Position numbers and translations under genes: made by a program. The notes under the pieces are model-generated. The model was not told the DNA's origin. It searched no databases and saw only the letters and a program-made list of their open reading frames with translations. Source: Chthoniobacterales bacterium (GTDB lineage Bacteria; Verrucomicrobiota; Verrucomicrobiia; Chthoniobacterales; UBA6821). From it: a DNA stretch of 41,730 bases. How positions within the stretch are numbered: the first letter of the stretch is position 1; every line of letters starts with the position of its first letter. Of this stretch, positions 1 to 9,612 are shown one piece after another. The stretch is taken from positions 1-41,730 of the forward strand of contig JAPJNA010000006.1 of the NCBI GenBank assembly GCA_026461395.1. Reading direction: 5' to 3'.

Positions 1-182
1 ACAGGGTTGCAATCCACCCAACAACCATCCACAACATCAACCAACCAATACCATCCGAACTTCAGTTTTGATGTGTCCCAACTTTGGGGTCAGGTCAGCT
101 GTAATGAAACAGCCTATTTAAAAACACTGGTATTGAAATAGATCGCTGTTTAAATAAAACGCATCGTTATTGAATTTTGTTC

Positions 183-217: not shown

Positions 218-703
218 ATGATGAATATCTTCAAACCGTCAGAACCAAAAGTTACTGAGGTTAAATCACCTGAACCGAATCTGGATAGAAATTACTTTGA
301 TGAGTTGAAGTTGCTGAAACAGAAAGCCATTGAGCAATTGATAGATCGAAAGAAGCGGATCACTTGTGACATTCAAAATCAGATAGAAGAGCTTCAGGTG
401 AAACTCAAAGCTGAACTGGCAGATATTCATGCAAAATTGAAGGAACTTGGTCATATTACTGAGACTACCACTTCATCTCCTAAGCAGCGTGGTGCCCGTA
501 AATTCCATCCCGCTGTTACCGATGAGGTATTGAAGCAGAAGTTTTCGACATTACTCTCTGATGGTAAGAAGGCAGGGAGCAAAGAGATTTTTGCAGCATT
601 GGATATCTCCAGACCTCGATTCATTGCCTTCCAGAAAAACTGCACAGGCTACCTTGTAATTACAGGGAGCAAGAAAACTACTCAGTATTCTCTCAAGGCA
701 TAA
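218..703 (+). CDS. Coiled-coil protein with winged-helix-like C-terminus, unknown function
   Basis: 161 aa. I do not recognise a named family. Residues about 25-80 are rich in Leu, Lys, Glu and Gln in heptad-like order and should form a coiled coil. Residues about 95-161 follow a Lys/Arg-rich linker and look like a small helix-turn-helix or winged-helix domain: two helices with KEIFAALDISRPRF, then two short beta strands at the end. This layout would suit a dimeric DNA-binding protein, perhaps the regulator of the element; that is inference. The ATG (218) sits 6 bases after a -10-like box, so the message would be nearly leaderless. There are two consecutive ATG codons and the start could be either. 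The next gene starts 12 bases after the stop. Confidence 0.65.
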   Translation: MMNIFKPSEPKVTEVKSPEPNLDRNYFDELKLLKQKAIEQLIDRKKRITCDIQNQIEELQVKLKAELADIHAKLKELGHITETTTSSPKQRGARKFHPAVTDEVLKQKFSTLLSDGKKAGSKEIFAALDISRPRFIAFQKNCTGYLVITGSKKTTQYSLKA

Positions 704-714
704 GCCCAACGGTC

Positions 715-1248
715 TTGAAGACTTACCGTCTAGTCTTAAATCTTGCGGATGATGGAGTTAAGGAACTCTACAATAAAGTCTTAAAGGCACTTGAGGCACA
801 GCCTGACCGCTTAGAGATTGATCTGATAGGATTAGGCCATCAAAAGCCTGATACGATTCTCATGATCTGGGATATGCTGTTGAAAAGAGATCCCAAGACC
901 ATTCTCTCTGTCCATGCCAGAACTTCTCTGTTTGATGGATGCCTTCTTTTGCTCCTGATAGCAGATGAGAGGAGAATCCGTCCAAAGAGTTGGGTTCAAT
1001 TGGACTCACCATCTAAACTGAAAGAAACAGATTGGGCAGAGCTTGAGGATAAAGCGACTCGCAGAGGGAAAAATCTGATTCATGAACCCACTTTTGTAAC
1101 TGACTACTGCCAGATTGCAGAATTGATGAATGAGTATCTTCCTGTTGAGAAAATTTCTGGTCAAAGGTGGGCTTTGGAGAATCTGAAAGAGTACGGATTG
1201 CTTCTGGATTCACAGGAAGAGAAGGCGTTTCAGGAATGTTTTAAGTGA
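715..1248 (+). CDS. ClpP/crotonase-fold-like protein, degenerate, unknown function
   Basis: 177 aa with a TTG start at 715; no in-frame ATG lies close to the N-terminus. The pattern of strands and helices resembles the ClpP fold: a hydrophobic strand (LEIDLIGLG, about 33-41), a helix with IWDMLLKRD, a strand ILSVHA, then SLFDGCLLLLLIADERR and PKSWVQL, which align by eye with the ClpP segment containing SMG, the following helix and the PNSR-type strand. The Ser of SMG would be Phe here and the catalytic His is not seen, so protease activity is unlikely. The assignment is tentative and could be wrong. It is probably in one operon with the preceding gene. Confidence 0.55.
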   Translation: MKTYRLVLNLADDGVKELYNKVLKALEAQPDRLEIDLIGLGHQKPDTILMIWDMLLKRDPKTILSVHARTSLFDGCLLLLLIADERRIRPKSWVQLDSPSKLKETDWAELEDKATRRGKNLIHEPTFVTDYCQIAELMNEYLPVEKISGQRWALENLKEYGLLLDSQEEKAFQECFK

Positions 1249-1901
1249 GCAGGAAGCGATCCTAGTACTCCCAGACAGTCACCACATATCCTGAATCCCC
1301 ATTCTCGACCACATAGACCATCCCAATTGCTCCTCGAAGTGCGTATGGATGCCTTGAGAATGGATATTCCAGGACCATCTATCGGACAAAAAAGCTGGGT
1401 TGCCTTATCTGTCTCAGTATCTCCAAGCCAAGAATACAAAGGAACATCCTTCAGGTTCCGTAGGAGTGGGTCTTCCTGATCTGTAAAAGGCCGTAGAATT
1501 GATTTTCCAAAGGTTTCTAGGTCTTTGCTCATAAAAGAATTCGGAAACCGTACAGGGGCATCCTCGATCCTCAGTTCATATCCACTGGTTCCTAATCCTG
1601 ATTGGGTTAGAGCAAACCTAAATCCAAAGAATCTCTCCTTGAAGAGCCTTCTGACCGTTTTTCTGTTGATCAGATAGGTTGTCTTCATGCCACCAAATGG
1701 TTTTTCGATACTGTAGGAATAATATCCCAAAGGATTGAAGGTCTCATGAATGACACTGCCTGAGTCTTTGGACAGAAGAAGTGCCAAGAAGGGAGTATCA
1801 TGCGTTTTCTGGAGATTTTTCTGATCTCTAGGAGAAGCAGTGTCCTTTTGAGGGATGGTGGTGAAGAATGGCATGGGTTCCGTAAACGATTCTCTCCTCA
1901 A
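1230..1901 (-). CDS. Unknown protein translated with the polymerase-like gene
   Basis: 223 aa, no recognised family. The TTG start (1901) overlaps the TGA of the upstream polymerase-like gene in a TTGA, so the two are very probably translationally coupled and may act together. An in-frame ATG at 1874 is an alternative start. The protein has no signal peptide or membrane segment. It is rich in Phe, Gly, Arg and Thr, has a middle part with alternating hydrophobic residues suggestive of beta structure (about 35-115), and a C-terminus with three Cys residues (GLCGREWGFRICGDC) that could bind metal. Its 3' end overlaps the 3' end of the convergent gene ending at 1248 by 19 bases. Confidence 0.6.
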   Translation of the reverse strand: MRRESFTEPMPFFTTIPQKDTASPRDQKNLQKTHDTPFLALLLSKDSGSVIHETFNPLGYYSYSIEKPFGGMKTTYLINRKTVRRLFKERFFGFRFALTQSGLGTSGYELRIEDAPVRFPNSFMSKDLETFGKSILRPFTDQEDPLLRNLKDVPLYSWLGDTETDKATQLFCPIDGPGISILKASIRTSRSNWDGLCGREWGFRICGDCLGVLGSLPAHLKHS

Positions 1902-3034
1902 GGAATCTGATTTAGAGCGTCCATTATGGTCAAAGGACGCTGATTCGGGATCTTTGGTGTGATTTTGGTGGATCCATTCATTCCTTGTCGTTGGAGGAAG
2001 TCTTCCAATGCCACTTGGACGATAATTGCGTCATTCTCTCCACAGAAGACACCATCATGAGCAGGAATAACCTTCAGTGACTTATTTCCCATGATGAAGT
2101 CTCTAATCAGCTTTCCCTCCATCTGTTGAGTCCTAAATTGAACGGAATCCACATCGTTGAGTTTATCGACATATGCCATGATCTCAGGGAACTCCTTACG
2201 AAAGAGTTTTTGGATGGATAAGACCGACCCATAACACTTTTTTTTGCTGAATGCTGTCCAAATCATGTCCTTGATATCTTTACGCTTTTCTTTCAGACCC
2301 AACGTCGTTTTCAAGGTATCTGCGAAATCATTCACAATCCACAGATCCCACTTCTTGTCATTGATCTCCTTGTTCAAGATTTGTTGCATCATTCCAGAGA
2401 CATCTACATTCACCAGTTTGCCAGCATCGCCGAAAACGATATGCTTTCGGAGTTTCTTATCCTTCATGATGATCGGAGAATAGACTCGAAGGTTCCCACC
2501 TATGGTTATCCGTGGTCTTTTACGATCCAAAATCGACCTCAATACCTTCCCTTCACCTTTACGAGGGCGGATTGTCATCTTGAGCGTGTTGTGACGCTCT
2601 TTAATGAGGCGTAAATACTCGGAATCGGGATCTGTAGGATCATCCTCTCCATCTCTGGGTAATTTGTCCCAAACGCTCTTCAGCAGCGAAACAGGGTGGT
2701 CGTAGTGATTTGCTGTATCCCATAAAGCTTCATCAGAAAGCCTGAATGACTTTGGGAAACCATCCTTGTCGTTCTTGTATTTGCCATTCTCTTCAACCCA
2801 TCCAAGTTTGTCTGGAAGAAGAGCCTCAATGTGCTTCCTGTATTCCTTCCCAAGCTGTTTCTGTAGCAATCTCGATTTTTGAGGGATGTATCTTCCTTTA
2901 ATCATCTGAGAGAGGCATTGGCATCGAAGAAGATGATAAAAGACCAACGATCTCCAATTCATGCTTTTCAGCATTTTGGCGGTGGCAAAGGAAGGAACTT
3001 TTACGATGTAGTCTTGACGAAGTGCTTTTGTCAT
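1898..3034 (-). CDS. Family A DNA polymerase-like palm protein of a mobile element
   Basis: 378 aa. The C-terminal half carries the motif order of a family A polymerase palm. NLRVYSPI and KLRKHIVF lead into LVNVDVSGMMQQIL (motif A-like, Asp211); RKDIKDMIWTAFSKKKCYGS (251-270) resembles motif B with Arg251, Lys255 and Tyr268-Gly269; then EFPEIMAYVDKL, QQMEGKLI and VIPAHDGVF (motif C-like, His326-Asp327). The same order (RxYSP, KLVxxD, YG, xEFP, HD) occurs in uncharacterised plasmid and phage proteins that resemble a reduced Pol I palm. No exonuclease or primase domain is seen; residues 1-160 are not recognised. I infer a replication or repair role for the element. The gene is preceded by a small basic ORF and coupled to the next gene. 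Confidence 0.65.
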   Translation of the reverse strand: MTKALRQDYIVKVPSFATAKMLKSMNWRSLVFYHLLRCQCLSQMIKGRYIPQKSRLLQKQLGKEYRKHIEALLPDKLGWVEENGKYKNDKDGFPKSFRLSDEALWDTANHYDHPVSLLKSVWDKLPRDGEDDPTDPDSEYLRLIKERHNTLKMTIRPRKGEGKVLRSILDRKRPRITIGGNLRVYSPIIMKDKKLRKHIVFGDAGKLVNVDVSGMMQQILNKEINDKKWDLWIVNDFADTLKTTLGLKEKRKDIKDMIWTAFSKKKCYGSVLSIQKLFRKEFPEIMAYVDKLNDVDSVQFRTQQMEGKLIRDFIMGNKSLKVIPAHDGVFCGENDAIIVQVALEDFLQRQGMNGSTKITPKIPNQRPLTIMDALNQIP

Positions 3035-3444: not shown

Positions 3445-3473
3445 AGCCTATTGAAAATAACTGGTAAAGTCAA
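3445..3473 (-). promoter_or_regulatory. Promoter-like site toward the polymerase-like gene
   Basis: On the minus strand, TTGACT (3473-3468), a 17-base spacer starting TTACCAGTTATTTT, and TAGGCT (3450-3445) form a sigma70-like promoter pointing at the small basic ORF and the polymerase-like gene. It is the inverted twin of the promoter at 3553-3581. The -10 match is weak (3 of 6). Confidence 0.45.
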
Positions 3474-3572
3474 TAACAATCGTACTGTGCGATTAAGATC
3501 CAATTGGAATAAGATTATTACACTGTCGGCTGTTACGATTGCTGTTTAATTATTGACTTTACCAGTTATTTT
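3454..3572. repeat. Perfect 23-bp inverted repeat with nested 8-bp arms
   Basis: Bases 3454-3476 are the exact reverse complement of 3550-3572; both arms contain TTGACTTTACCAGTTATTTT read outward. Directly inside, CAATCGTA (3477-3484) pairs with TACGATTG (3534-3541). Each outer arm overlaps the -35 and spacer of one of two divergent promoters. This suggests a control region for the two transcription units, possibly also an origin or a recombinase site. The 49-base centre has no gene. Confidence 0.8.
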
Positions 3573-3581
3573 TACTAGCAT
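3553..3581 (+). promoter_or_regulatory. Promoter-like site toward the excisionase-like gene
   Basis: TTGACT (3553-3558), a 17-base spacer that begins TTACCAGTTATTTT, and TAGCAT (3576-3581; 4 of 6 match to TATAAT). An ATG follows 10 bases later (3592). Same layout as the sites at 183-211 and 3445-3473. Confidence 0.5.
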
Positions 3582-3591
3582 ACAGCCCATC

Positions 3592-3702
3592 ATGAATAAA
3601 GAACGGCCATTACATCAATTTTCACAAAGGGATAACAGAGTAATTGCACACAATTATATCTTACGGATTCCTGTTATTAAACAGGATCGCATCTCTCGCT
3701 AG
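3592..3702 (+). CDS. Possible short leader ORF (36 aa)
   Basis: An ATG just after the -10-like box opens a 36-codon frame (MNKERPLHQFSQRDNRVIAH at the start, SR at the end) that stops at 3702, 16 bases before the probable ATG of the excisionase-like gene. No family is recognised. Its position right at the expected transcription start suggests a leaderless leader peptide or a real small protein; chance is also possible. Confidence 0.3.
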   Translation: MNKERPLHQFSQRDNRVIAHNYILRIPVIKQDRISR

Positions 3703-3718
3703 TCAAATAGCACCGCCG

Positions 3719-3976
3719 ATGAATAGTATAACCGCACTATCTCAGACTTGGAGCGATCACGACAAGGTGGTGCAGTTCAGCCATCCAATTAAAGATATCC
3801 AAAAGATGGAATTCCCAGAGGCAATCGCTGATGATATTGGCTTTAGGAAGGAGTACATCAACAATCTGAAAAGGAAGGGATGTCCATTCGTCGGTCGCAA
3901 AACCTGTATCCTTTGGGTTAGGGAGTTTCTGGCAAGGGAAGCAGGGGCAGCACCACCTTACTCAATGCAGCACTAG
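3719..3976 (+). CDS. Small excisionase-like DNA-binding protein
   Basis: 85 aa from the ATG at 3719; a longer frame from TTG 3644 is possible but its extra 25 residues look non-native. Residues about 27-75 (KMEFPEAIADDIGFRKEYIN, then NLKRKGCPFVGRKTCIL) have the shape of a helix-turn-helix of the excisionase/MerR-like kind: a helix, a turn, a recognition helix and a small wing ending in a trailing helix. Being small, basic and next to a tyrosine recombinase gene fits a recombination directionality factor; that role is inferred from context. The 3' end overlaps the convergent integrase gene by 59 bases. Confidence 0.55.
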   Translation: MNSITALSQTWSDHDKVVQFSHPIKDIQKMEFPEAIADDIGFRKEYINNLKRKGCPFVGRKTCILWVREFLAREAGAAPPYSMQH

Positions 3977-4958
3977 AATCACCCACATTCAAACGGGTGT
4001 AGATCTTGTGAACCTCAGTTGATGAATGATTCACCAATCTCATTACCTGTGCTTCGGTAAGTCCTGCTCTATGGCAACGAGTAATAAAGGTAACACGGCA
4101 AGAATGAGAAGTAGCACCACAGGCCTCTTTGATAACACTATTGAAATTCTGATTCCTGCTACCGTCCAGTATTGGAACGGCATATCCATCTTCCCACTTG
4201 AGCTCTTTCAAATAGGCAGCGAATTCCTTGCTAATCGGTACCGTGAACATTTTTCGAGGATCTGTTGGTTTCCTCTTTGAATCTTCGATTTGGATGAGTG
4301 GCTGTATTGCTTGGAAATCAATCTGCGATTTGTGAAATCTGGCTTCTCCAAAGCGACATCCAAGCTGCAGCAGGATCTCAAACACGGTTTTCATCCATGA
4401 GGAACGCTTCTTAAAAAGACGCCTAGCCTTGTCAATATCATCATCAGTCAACTCCTCTTTCAACGGAGCTTCTTTTTTGTGGACTCTGTACTGAGCAATG
4501 ACATTTCTGTCTGCGTACTCTCTTCGGATTGCCTCGCTCATCAAGGAACCAAAGAATTTTAGTTCAAGTCTAGCCGTGTTGTGAACAACAGACTCCTTCC
4601 TCCATGCCATGTACCTTGAAGCATGTTCATACTTTATTTCTCTTGGATGCCGGATTTTTTCGCTCAAAAGCCATCCGTTCAAATTTGTCCAAGCAATGGA
4701 GTACCGTTTGAATGAGCTAGGCTTTGGATACTGCTCTTTAAGATAAAGAGGAACCCACGATGAAAATTCTCCACCAGAAACAGGAGCAAACTTTTTTTCG
4801 AGTTCGGTTCTCTTAACTCTCTCCCTGTTCGCTTTAATCCTATCCTGTGGATTGTCCACACGGTACCTCGTCGTCTCGTCTAACCATTCTCCCGAATCAA
4901 TGTCTCGGTATCGGATGGTGAAGTACGGAGATCCTTTTCTTTCACGCAGGGAAGCCAT
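3918..4958 (-). CDS. int: Tyrosine recombinase / integrase
   Basis: 346 aa from the ATG at 4958; an upstream in-frame ATG at 4997 would add 13 residues. The start MASLRERKGSPYFTIRY resembles other integrases, and the extra stretch overlaps phased DNA repeats, so 4958 is preferred. An N-terminal AP2-like strand region and a SAM-like core-binding domain (about 65-165) precede the catalytic domain. Counted from 4997, the visible catalytic residues are Arg215 (GCRFGEAR), His298 and Arg301 (HSCR), His324 (VNHSS, in place of GHSS) and Tyr333 (HKIYTR). The set is complete, so the enzyme should be active in integrating and excising this element. Confidence 0.9.
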   Translation of the reverse strand: MASLRERKGSPYFTIRYRDIDSGEWLDETTRYRVDNPQDRIKANRERVKRTELEKKFAPVSGGEFSSWVPLYLKEQYPKPSSFKRYSIAWTNLNGWLLSEKIRHPREIKYEHASRYMAWRKESVVHNTARLELKFFGSLMSEAIRREYADRNVIAQYRVHKKEAPLKEELTDDDIDKARRLFKKRSSWMKTVFEILLQLGCRFGEARFHKSQIDFQAIQPLIQIEDSKRKPTDPRKMFTVPISKEFAAYLKELKWEDGYAVPILDGSRNQNFNSVIKEACGATSHSCRVTFITRCHRAGLTEAQVMRLVNHSSTEVHKIYTRLNVGDSSAALSKVVLPLLPLPETP

Positions 4959-4968
4959 AACCAAAAAT

Positions 4969-5011
4969 TGCCCCATGCTGCCCCAAGACACAAGCATTCT
5001 AACGCATTCTA
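4969..5011. repeat. Two pairs of helically phased short direct repeats
   Basis: TGCCCCA occurs at 4969-4975 and 4979-4985, and GCATTCTA at 4994-5001 and 5004-5011. Both pairs are repeated with a period of exactly 10 bases, one turn of the helix. They lie just upstream of the integrase start at the presumed element edge. Candidate binding sites for integrase arms, for the excisionase-like protein, or for autoregulation; inferred. Confidence 0.45.
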
Positions 5012-7435: not shown

Positions 7436-8575
7436 ATGACCACCAAGAAAAAAGCCTCCAAAGCTCCCAAAGCGCAAGAAACATCCAAGAAGAAGCCCGC
7501 CGGATCTGCGGCAAAAACGAAATCCTCGAAACTCGCCAAAAGTTCCTATGCGCGCGCGGGAGTTGATGTGGCGCTCGGCAACCGGCTCAAGTCCGGCATC
7601 GGAGCACTCGTTCGTCCCACCCACGGGGCCGAGGTACTGGGAGGTATCGGCGGCTTCGGCGGCCTCTTCCGTCCCGATTTTAAGAAACGCGGGATCAAAG
7701 ATCCCGTCCTGGTCGCAAGCGTCGATGGTGTCGGCACGAAACTCAAAATTGCCTTTGCCACGGACAAGCACGACACGATCGGGGCCGATCTTGTGAACCA
7801 CTGCGTCAACGACATCGCTGTGACGGGCGCCCGTCCCCTTTTCTTCCTCGATTACATTGCAGCCGCCCAACTCGACCCCCGCGTGCTCAAAGAAATCATC
7901 ACCGGCCTCTCCCGTGCCTGCAAGGAAGCGGGCTGCGCCCTGATCGGTGGTGAGACAGCACAGATGCCCGGACTTTACAGCGAGGGGGAATATGATTTGG
8001 CAGGCTCCATCACCGGTATTGTTGACCGGAAGGACCTGCTCGACGGGAGTCGGGTGAAGGTGGGCGACGCTCTCATCGGACTCCCCTCCAACGGCCTTCA
8101 CACCAACGGATACTCGCTGGCCCGGAAGGTTCTCCTGGATCTTCTCGGGCTCAAGCTCAGCGACCGTCCAGCCGGACTTGGCACGACCGTCGGTGCGGAG
8201 CTTCTCAAGGTTCACCGCAGCTACCTGCCGGCTTTTGAGAAAATTCACCAGATGAAGGGCAAACCACTCCATGCCGCGGCACACATTACAGGCGGCGGAC
8301 TGATCGACAACCTCCCTCGCATCCTTCCTAAGGGTTGCGACGCAGTGATCGATCCCCATTCCTGGAAGGTGCCGGCGATCTTCGGAATCATCGGGCGTGG
8401 TGGAAACGTCGATCCGCTCGAGATGTATCAAGTCTTCAATATGGGTATTGGCATGGTGCTTGTGGTTCCCGGCAAGGAGGGCTCCTCTATTGCCAAGAAA
8501 CTCGGGGGAAAAATCATCGGGCAGGTCACCAAGGGAAGCGGTATTGTCCGCTTCGTCCCCGAACCCGGGAAATAA
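7436..8575 (+). CDS. purM: Phosphoribosylformylglycinamidine cyclo-ligase
   Basis: 379 aa AIR synthetase: ATP-dependent ring closure of FGAM to aminoimidazole ribotide, step 5 of purine synthesis. Recognised by SYARAGVDVALGNRL, the glycine-rich GGIGGFGGLF, SVDGVGTKLKIA, HCVNDIAVTGARPLFFLDYI, IGGETAQMPGLY, GLPSNGLHTNGYSLAR and HITGGGLIDNLPRILP. The first about 33 residues are a Lys/Ala-rich extension not found in the E. coli enzyme (345 aa); it may be a disordered tail. It follows purF closely and is followed 11 bases later by the hydrolase-like gene, so all three may be cotranscribed. Confidence 0.95.
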   Translation: MTTKKKASKAPKAQETSKKKPAGSAAKTKSSKLAKSSYARAGVDVALGNRLKSGIGALVRPTHGAEVLGGIGGFGGLFRPDFKKRGIKDPVLVASVDGVGTKLKIAFATDKHDTIGADLVNHCVNDIAVTGARPLFFLDYIAAAQLDPRVLKEIITGLSRACKEAGCALIGGETAQMPGLYSEGEYDLAGSITGIVDRKDLLDGSRVKVGDALIGLPSNGLHTNGYSLARKVLLDLLGLKLSDRPAGLGTTVGAELLKVHRSYLPAFEKIHQMKGKPLHAAAHITGGGLIDNLPRILPKGCDAVIDPHSWKVPAIFGIIGRGGNVDPLEMYQVFNMGIGMVLVVPGKEGSSIAKKLGGKIIGQVTKGSGIVRFVPEPGK

Positions 8576-8586
8576 GAAGTCCCGGC

Positions 8587-9612
8587 ATGAACGAGGAATC
8601 CCAAAACCAGCCAAGTCGTCGCAAGGCTCTTGGCGTGGGATTGGGAGCAGGCCTCCTCGGCGCCGTCGCACTGGCCGTGCGATACGGCTGGCGCAATACC
8701 CTGCGCAGTATCATACCGGACGCCATCTCGCCGGCGGTCTTCGCAACCCGCGTGGCCGACACATCGGCCGGGGAGATCGTCTACCATACCGCCGACAGCC
8801 AGTTTCCCGGACAGCCTCTCCTCTTTCTCCACGGCGTCTTCCCCGGTGCCTCTTCCTTCGAGTGGTCGAAGATCTACCCCCGCTTTGCCGACACGTGGAG
8901 GGTGCTCGTGCCCGATATGATCGGATTCGGAGAATCGCAGCGCCCCTCACCCTCGCCGACTGCGGAGGAACAGGTCCGCTCGATTGCAGAATTTCTGGAT
9001 GCCACCGTCCCGGGTCAGGCGTCCGTTATTATCGCCTCGGGATTAAGCGCGAACATTGCCCTGCTTTTTGCAGCGCGTCATCCGGAAAAAACCGTGAAAC
9101 TTGTCCTCTGGATGCCGGATGTCGCACTGGGGAAGGCCAATCCCTCACGGGGATGGCACCGTCTCGGCTGGTTCCCGAGAATGGCGCGTCTTGTCTACCG
9201 CTACCAACTCTCCACCGATTCCTTCCTGAGGGCCTGGTTGCTACGTTCGGGATTCGTCGCGGAGGGTCCCGGATTCGAGGAGTCGGTTAGTGTCATCACA
9301 TCGACCGCCCAACAGTACGGCGCGGAACATGCCTTCCTGGCCCAATCGTCAAAAGCCTATTGGCGCAGTATGCGCACGGGACTTCGCAACCTAGCCTCGC
9401 CTGTATCCGTACTCCTGGCCAATAGGTCGGACAAGGACTCCTCCGCGGCAATTAATGACTTGCGGCCACTCGTTACGCGGTTTTCTATCGTTGAGGTGAC
9501 AGCGCTCGGCGCCCTGGCCCCGCTTGCCGAACCCGAGAGCGTGGCGGTCGCGCTTGAGAGGGAACTGGAAACACCGAATCAGTCAGAAACCGCGGGCGGC
9601 AACATAAATTGA
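8587..9612 (+). CDS. Tat-exported alpha/beta-hydrolase-like protein, catalytic His apparently lost
   Basis: 341 aa from ATG 8587 (a longer frame from 8335 lies inside purM and is rejected). The N-terminus has a twin-arginine signal: PSRRKALGVG followed by a hydrophobic stretch to about residue 31. The alpha/beta-hydrolase core shows LLFLHGVFPGASSF (oxyanion region, 79-91), VLVPDMIGFGES (107-117) and the nucleophile elbow SGLSAN with Ser154. At the place of the usual C-terminal G-H-x-P-x-x-E-x-P the sequence reads TALGALAPLAEPE, so the catalytic His seems replaced by Ala (about 309). It could be a non-enzymatic relative, or use another His. Substrate unknown. Confidence 0.8.
   Translation: MNEESQNQPSRRKALGVGLGAGLLGAVALAVRYGWRNTLRSIIPDAISPAVFATRVADTSAGEIVYHTADSQFPGQPLLFLHGVFPGASSFEWSKIYPRFADTWRVLVPDMIGFGESQRPSPSPTAEEQVRSIAEFLDATVPGQASVIIASGLSANIALLFAARHPEKTVKLVLWMPDVALGKANPSRGWHRLGWFPRMARLVYRYQLSTDSFLRAWLLRSGFVAEGPGFEESVSVITSTAQQYGAEHAFLAQSSKAYWRSMRTGLRNLASPVSVLLANRSDKDSSAAINDLRPLVTRFSIVEVTALGALAPLAEPESVAVALERELETPNQSETAGGNIN

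Follow-up and report, generated by a model that had tools for sequence, protein, structure and literature searches.

We propose, with moderate confidence, that a 378-aa protein from the 41,730-bp window, which is the whole stretch of DNA analysed and an entire contig of a 2.03-Mb MAG, is an element-encoded initiator/primase-polymerase (Rep) from an integrative element with a tyrosine recombinase, and of the same kind as TV-Pol and divPolA2. Computation shows that the protein has a family A palm/fingers fold with both metal-binding aspartates, the RxxxK motif and a conserved arginine, without a nuclease domain, and that its gene resides in a low-GC island together with an integrase; N-terminal DNA binding, priming and replication of the element are inferred. 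The original prediction spoke of a new kind of replication, priming or repair enzyme. That range of functions still offers the best explanation as a class, but to call the enzyme a new kind goes too far, because TV-Pols were described in 2008 (PMC2579912), a related primase in 2020 (PMC7581432) and divPolA2 in 2024 (PMC11348598).

The low-GC island and its parts

GC content is mostly 42-44% over the first ~5 kb of the window against ~60% further right, and this low-GC stretch holds a tyrosine recombinase, an excisionase-like gene, the polymerase-like gene, a gene coupled to it and two unknown ORFs. The parts are as follows.

1..98, no strand: multi-copy sequence found at many contig ends
177..201, plus strand: repeat copy ...TTTACCAGTTATTT, upstream of the ORF at 218
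218..703, plus strand: uncharacterised 161-aa ORF (ORF list; Pfam and PHROGs searched)
715..1248, plus strand: uncharacterised 177-aa ORF (ORF list; Pfam and PHROGs searched)
1230..1901, minus strand: coupled 223-aa gene, its TTG start overlapping the polymerase stop
1898..3034, minus strand: 378-aa minimal A-family polymerase, TV-Pol-like (ORF, model, fold matches, family alignment)
3448..3476, minus strand: repeat copy oriented toward the polymerase gene
3550..3578, plus strand: repeat copy oriented toward the excisionase-like gene
3721..3976, plus strand: small excisionase-like gene (ATG at 3721 inside ORF 3644-3976; no Pfam match)
3918..4997, minus strand: tyrosine recombinase/integrase, 359 aa (PF00589, 4.7e-8; phrog_1, 4.6e-31)

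The predicted 378-aa reading frame was borne out, with the addition of its strand, which had gone unstated: it runs from 3034 to 1898 on the minus strand, and the plus strand there is full of stops. The putative excisionase is so named from its size, sequence and position. Three repeats centred on TTTACCAGTTATTT each lie upstream of one of three transcription units, and two of them (3550-3578 and 3448-3476) form a 29-nt inverted repeat of 93% identity; these repeats could be operators, promoters or an origin.

The contig stops inside the element, whose left end lies outside it. Bases 1-98 recur at the ends of ~12 other contigs of the same MAG; they probably come from one end of an IS or another multi-copy element at which the assembly broke. 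Neither a helicase gene nor an OB-fold partner was seen in the visible part of the element, which runs past the contig end, and the visible neighbours of the polymerase gene include no nuclease gene. An Rfam search gave no match, and no tRNA was called within the window.

Fold and active site of the 378-aa protein

Single-sequence searches with the protein returned no Pfam, PHROGs or PDB match. An AlphaFold model built from 35 sequences (pLDDT 81.2, pTM 0.65) matched 46 PDB chains in Foldseek at E 0.001 or better, all of them A-family DNA polymerases. When residues 129-368 were compared by VIA-align, Pol theta gave Z 14.3 (3.3 A over 233 residues), bacterial Pol I 14.1 and yeast mitochondrial RNAP 13.5, and the model of a huge-phage relative (pLDDT 90.7, pTM 0.86) reached Z ~15 to those same enzymes. 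The palm expected by the original prediction is thus present in the predicted structure, and its statement that exonuclease and primase parts are missing also held, since neither Pfam and PHROGs nor the model revealed an exonuclease or a known primase domain in the protein. The domains and key residues are the following, all on the minus strand.

2675..3034: N-terminal domain, residues 1-120 (DSSP of the AlphaFold model)
1931..2647: polymerase core of palm and fingers, residues 130-368 (VIA-align Z: Pol theta 14.3, Pol I ~14)
2486..2488: R183, invariant Arg ahead of motif A (45/45)
2402..2404: D211, metal Asp of motif A (45/45; aligned with the Pol A Asp)
2270..2284: R251-x3-K255, the core of motif B in the O helix (Lys at 255 in 45/45; Arg or Lys at 251 in 45/45)
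2243..2248: S263-K264 where motif B usually has (F/Y)-G, degenerate (family F 40/45, G 37/45)
2117..2119: E306 in TQQME, invariant (45/45)
2054..2059: H326-D327, motif C (45/45)

In the model, DSSP places N-terminal helices at 27-42, 54-61 and 65-70, followed by strands at 80-82 and 96-99; by this helix-strand order the first 120 residues look winged-helix-like and may bind DNA. Within the core, helices span 136-148 and 161-170, and a strand at 184-185 lies beside R183.

Seven residues (R183, D211, K255, P283, E306, H326 and D327) are invariant in 45 of 45 diverse family sequences, position 251 is R or K in all 45, and position 196 is R in 43 and K in two. In an hhalign comparison of the family with Pol A, which scored 30.2 where the best of 30 column shuffles reached 14.8 (30/30 beaten), D211, R251/K255, the Q-x-x-E stretch and H326-D327 fell on the Pol I motifs. 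The conservation and the profile alignment together uphold the earlier assignment of D211 to motif A, R251/K255 to motif B and H326-D327 to motif C, with D211 and D327 aligned on the two metal-site aspartates. The proposed Y268-G269 of motif B did not survive: it is absent from a 46% identical relative, and the true O-helix Y-G position, at +8/+9 from the Lys, is occupied by S263-K264 in the window copy and by F-G in most relatives. The copies of the window and of the related genome G006 have also lost a Tyr (238) and a Gln (216) that are otherwise conserved; the window copy has M216 and A238 in the steric-gate region, and the E710 steric-gate position is not Glu. This divergence of the motif B Y-G and the steric-gate region means that the window copy could be weak or altered. 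Motif spacing in the window protein is 44 (A-B) and 72 (B-C); in Taq it is 53 and 122, so the fingers are probably reduced.

Relatives, neighbourhoods and known systems

When viral and genome contigs were first scanned with the window protein alone, no match appeared; the family was reached via one genus relative, a weak phage match and then profile searches. The full-length genus relative, 46% identical, occurs in one of 96 related genomes (G006), so that the polymerase is present in 2 of 97 with the window's own included. A two-sequence profile retrieved a third relative in the same class (E 4.6e-11), and tblastn gave a weak match in a 635-kb phage (E 0.1) that held up in a profile alignment (E 2e-6). 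Relatives were then found on 47 viral contigs in one scan and at 60 loci in another, the contigs being partly shared, as well as in five further phage records of 595-735 kb, two of them alike, and on a 35-kb Hymenobacter plasmid. Among Verrucomicrobiota, 10 of 388 genomes match a wide profile at E 0.001, four of them strongly, including the window's own. The family is a widespread, largely unannotated clade in huge phages, a plasmid and integrative elements. The Hymenobacter plasmid (L008) also carries a CAP12/Pycsar TIR-domain gene at 8499-9272.

Two of four Verrucomicrobiota relatives adjoin integrases at tmRNA or tRNA genes: in G006 the integrase overlaps a tmRNA gene, and in G373 the relative is on a short contig with an integrase-like gene next to tRNA-Pro, both integrases being named from sequence with no Pfam match at E 0.01. 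In G220 a serine recombinase (PF00239) lies ~4.4 kb upstream of the relative, and near the G282 relative there is a small MerR-like ORF and no recombinase in the stretch read. Between the G220 recombinase and polymerase relative (L242:2574-6779) is a 1401-aa NTPase-like protein, possibly a defence gene.

Among 14 phage and plasmid records with a relative, DnaB_C was found in 11 (L007, L009-L012, L019, L028, L083, L091, L098 and L041) and Pol A in one; DnaG_N and the DnaG Zn-ribbon, the primase domains searched, scored over the cut-off in 0/14, and the IMG/VR huge-phage records may be fragments. Huge phages mostly with a DnaB helicase and no detected DnaG fit a priming role for the relative. 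The record with Pol A is LR756511 (L012:1111-3557), whose 428-aa Pol A-like gene overlaps, with its start, the stop codon of the relative; no other such pairing was seen. PF00476 is missing from the host MAG (G000) and matches 6 of 29 class genomes as well as the control genomes, so much of this group may lack Pol I.

The original prediction also coupled the polymerase to an unknown gene. The 1230-1901 gene (minus strand) does overlap the polymerase stop codon, yet this arrangement is not conserved: no copy of the gene lies beside the G006 polymerase, so that it is not an obligate or general partner. Its 223-aa product has no Pfam or PHROG match and carries CPxDGP, GREW and CxxCLG motifs, whose cysteines may form a zinc site. 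For an MP/SSB identity of this gene no support was found. Homologs occur at three genus loci, and the one in the host's own genome overlaps an AAA+ ATPase gene. Pairs of a Cys-motif homolog and an overlapping AAA+ ATPase gene lie in the host genus at L249:5868-7927 and L251:6068-8292, the L251 ATPase being named from sequence.

TV-Pols (Iyer, Abhiman and Aravind 2008, PMC2579912) are A-family polymerases reduced to a minimal core that occur in mobile elements and viruses. They have a conserved Arg, two Asp and RxxxK without a nuclease and often lie beside integrases or D5 helicases, and a role in priming and extension was predicted for them. Their Arg sits in a beta-hairpin ahead of motif A, their fingers also carry a conserved Asp, and their thumb consists of two antiparallel helices, to which helices 136-148 and 161-170 of the model may correspond. 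The window protein shares with them the minimal core without a nuclease, the two metal Asp (D211 and D327, 45/45), the conserved Arg before motif A (R183) and the fingers RxxxK, [RK]xxxK across the family, and like them it sits in a mobile element with a recombination gene, an integrase or resolvase in TV-Pols and an integrase in the window. The LMM01 and Polaromonas TV-Pols have the family's R...R...D and LQ..E...HDG, and the E306 pattern reads TQQME in the window, LQRIE in LMM01 and LQGVE in Polaromonas; the in-register profile match of the TV-Pols to the family is weak (E 0.017 with a 3-sequence profile), and 0/30 shuffles were as good. Unlike many TV-Pols, which have an all-helical N-terminal domain and a D5 helicase partner, the window protein has a winged-helix-like N-terminus, and PF08706 (D5_N) had no match anywhere in the host genome.

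The divPolA2 proteins of phages (~430 aa; Yutin 2024, PMC11348598) resemble the window protein in having a palm without an exonuclease and an unrelated N-terminal domain in place of the thumb. The family profile matched divPolA2 AUR84708 in register (hhalign E 2.5e-4, then 1.5e-5 with prob 80 when two more members were added), but motif C reads FDE there and HDS/HDG in the family, and divPolA2, unlike the window gene, is found in phages beside a regular PolB. Because the divPolA2 match is in register and the TV-Pol match weak, we place the protein as a divergent variant in the TV-Pol/divPolA2 neighbourhood.

DNA priming has been proved for CCPol-MP (Bebel 2020, PMC7581432), a system later widened to PolA-SSB pairs (Rice 2023, PMC10061031). 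In these too, an integrative element with a site-specific recombinase carries an A-family polymerase, which in some cases lacks an exonuclease (PMC7581432; PMC10061031), and some PolA-SSB primase elements sit at ssrA, like the G006 relative. However, their operons include an OB-fold partner and a helicase, whereas the window has a Cys-motif coupled gene and no helicase was seen, and CCPol keeps the E710/F762 equivalents where the window protein has M216 and W259. Bacterial DNA polymerase I (PF00476) has the same palm/fingers fold, motif A, motif B core and motif C, but the window protein matches neither PF00476 nor an exonuclease domain in Pfam and its motif spacing is shorter. The family is a divergent branch without profile models, neither a new kind nor formally a PolA-SSB primase.

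Proposed role and alternatives

Our data suggest a model whereby the recombinase would first excise the element, the winged-helix-like N-terminus would bind element DNA, perhaps at the repeats 177-201 and 3448-3578, and the palm would synthesize a short new strand or primer to be extended by host polymerases, so that the element could gain copies before re-integration or transfer. Since no helicase is encoded in the visible part, one is assumed to come from the host or from a gene beyond the contig end.

A rather unlikely alternative is a primer-dependent DNA polymerase that fills gaps in the element or repairs it, for instance once it has been excised or has entered as a single strand, with no priming. 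The family A fold would suit it, CCPol minus its partner just extends primers (PMC7581432), repair or RNA polymerase activity was proposed for divPolA2 (PMC11348598), and a Pol I-like activity could be useful to a host genome without a PF00476 match; however, a sporadic, element-bound distribution (2/97 genomes) is unlike that of a host repair gene, and the winged-helix-like domain fused to the palm points to DNA binding at specific sites. We regard as improbable a degenerate palm protein that has kept the fold but whose main function in replication is structural or in DNA binding. Catalytic residues are indeed missing from some Pol-like RRM proteins of mobile elements (PMC10061031), and the window and G006 copies have lost the (F/Y)-G of motif B, the Tyr at 238 and the Gln at 216, but the seven invariant residues, including both metal Asp, the His and the Lys, are kept between these two genomes at 46% identity, which argues for retained catalysis.

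An element-specific RNA polymerase, with the TTTACCAGTTATTT repeats upstream of the three transcription units as its promoters, is very doubtful. The Z of 13.5 to yeast mitochondrial RNAP, the HDS/HDG motif C resembling that of T7-like RNAPs, the missing Glu at the steric gate and the repeats themselves all point its way, but the best Foldseek matches are DNA polymerases, and the repeats equally fit sigma-70-type -35 regions or a repressor operator. A relation to T7 RNA polymerase was not supported at the profile level, where 7/30 shuffles were as good.

Beyond the preferred reading of an element-encoded initiator/primase-polymerase, we tentatively raise the possibility of a one-chain primase clade that combines a winged-helix origin-binding domain with a minimal A-family palm, without an OB-fold partner or DnaG/AEP, and that may initiate small integrative elements and elsewhere be the missing primase of DnaB-carrying huge phages. 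To our knowledge, established primase superfamilies are only two (DnaG and AEP), plus a few exceptions. If the proposal is true, an A-family clade without a Pfam or PHROG model would join them as a third widely used way of priming, and would close a gap in the annotation of how huge phages replicate; proteins of 370-430 aa make a direct biochemical test possible.

As a separate observation, TV-Pol-like genes also lie near recombinase genes on 11-kb Polaromonas and 13.7-kb Calothrix plasmids (L252 and L253), where they are candidate plasmid Rep proteins.
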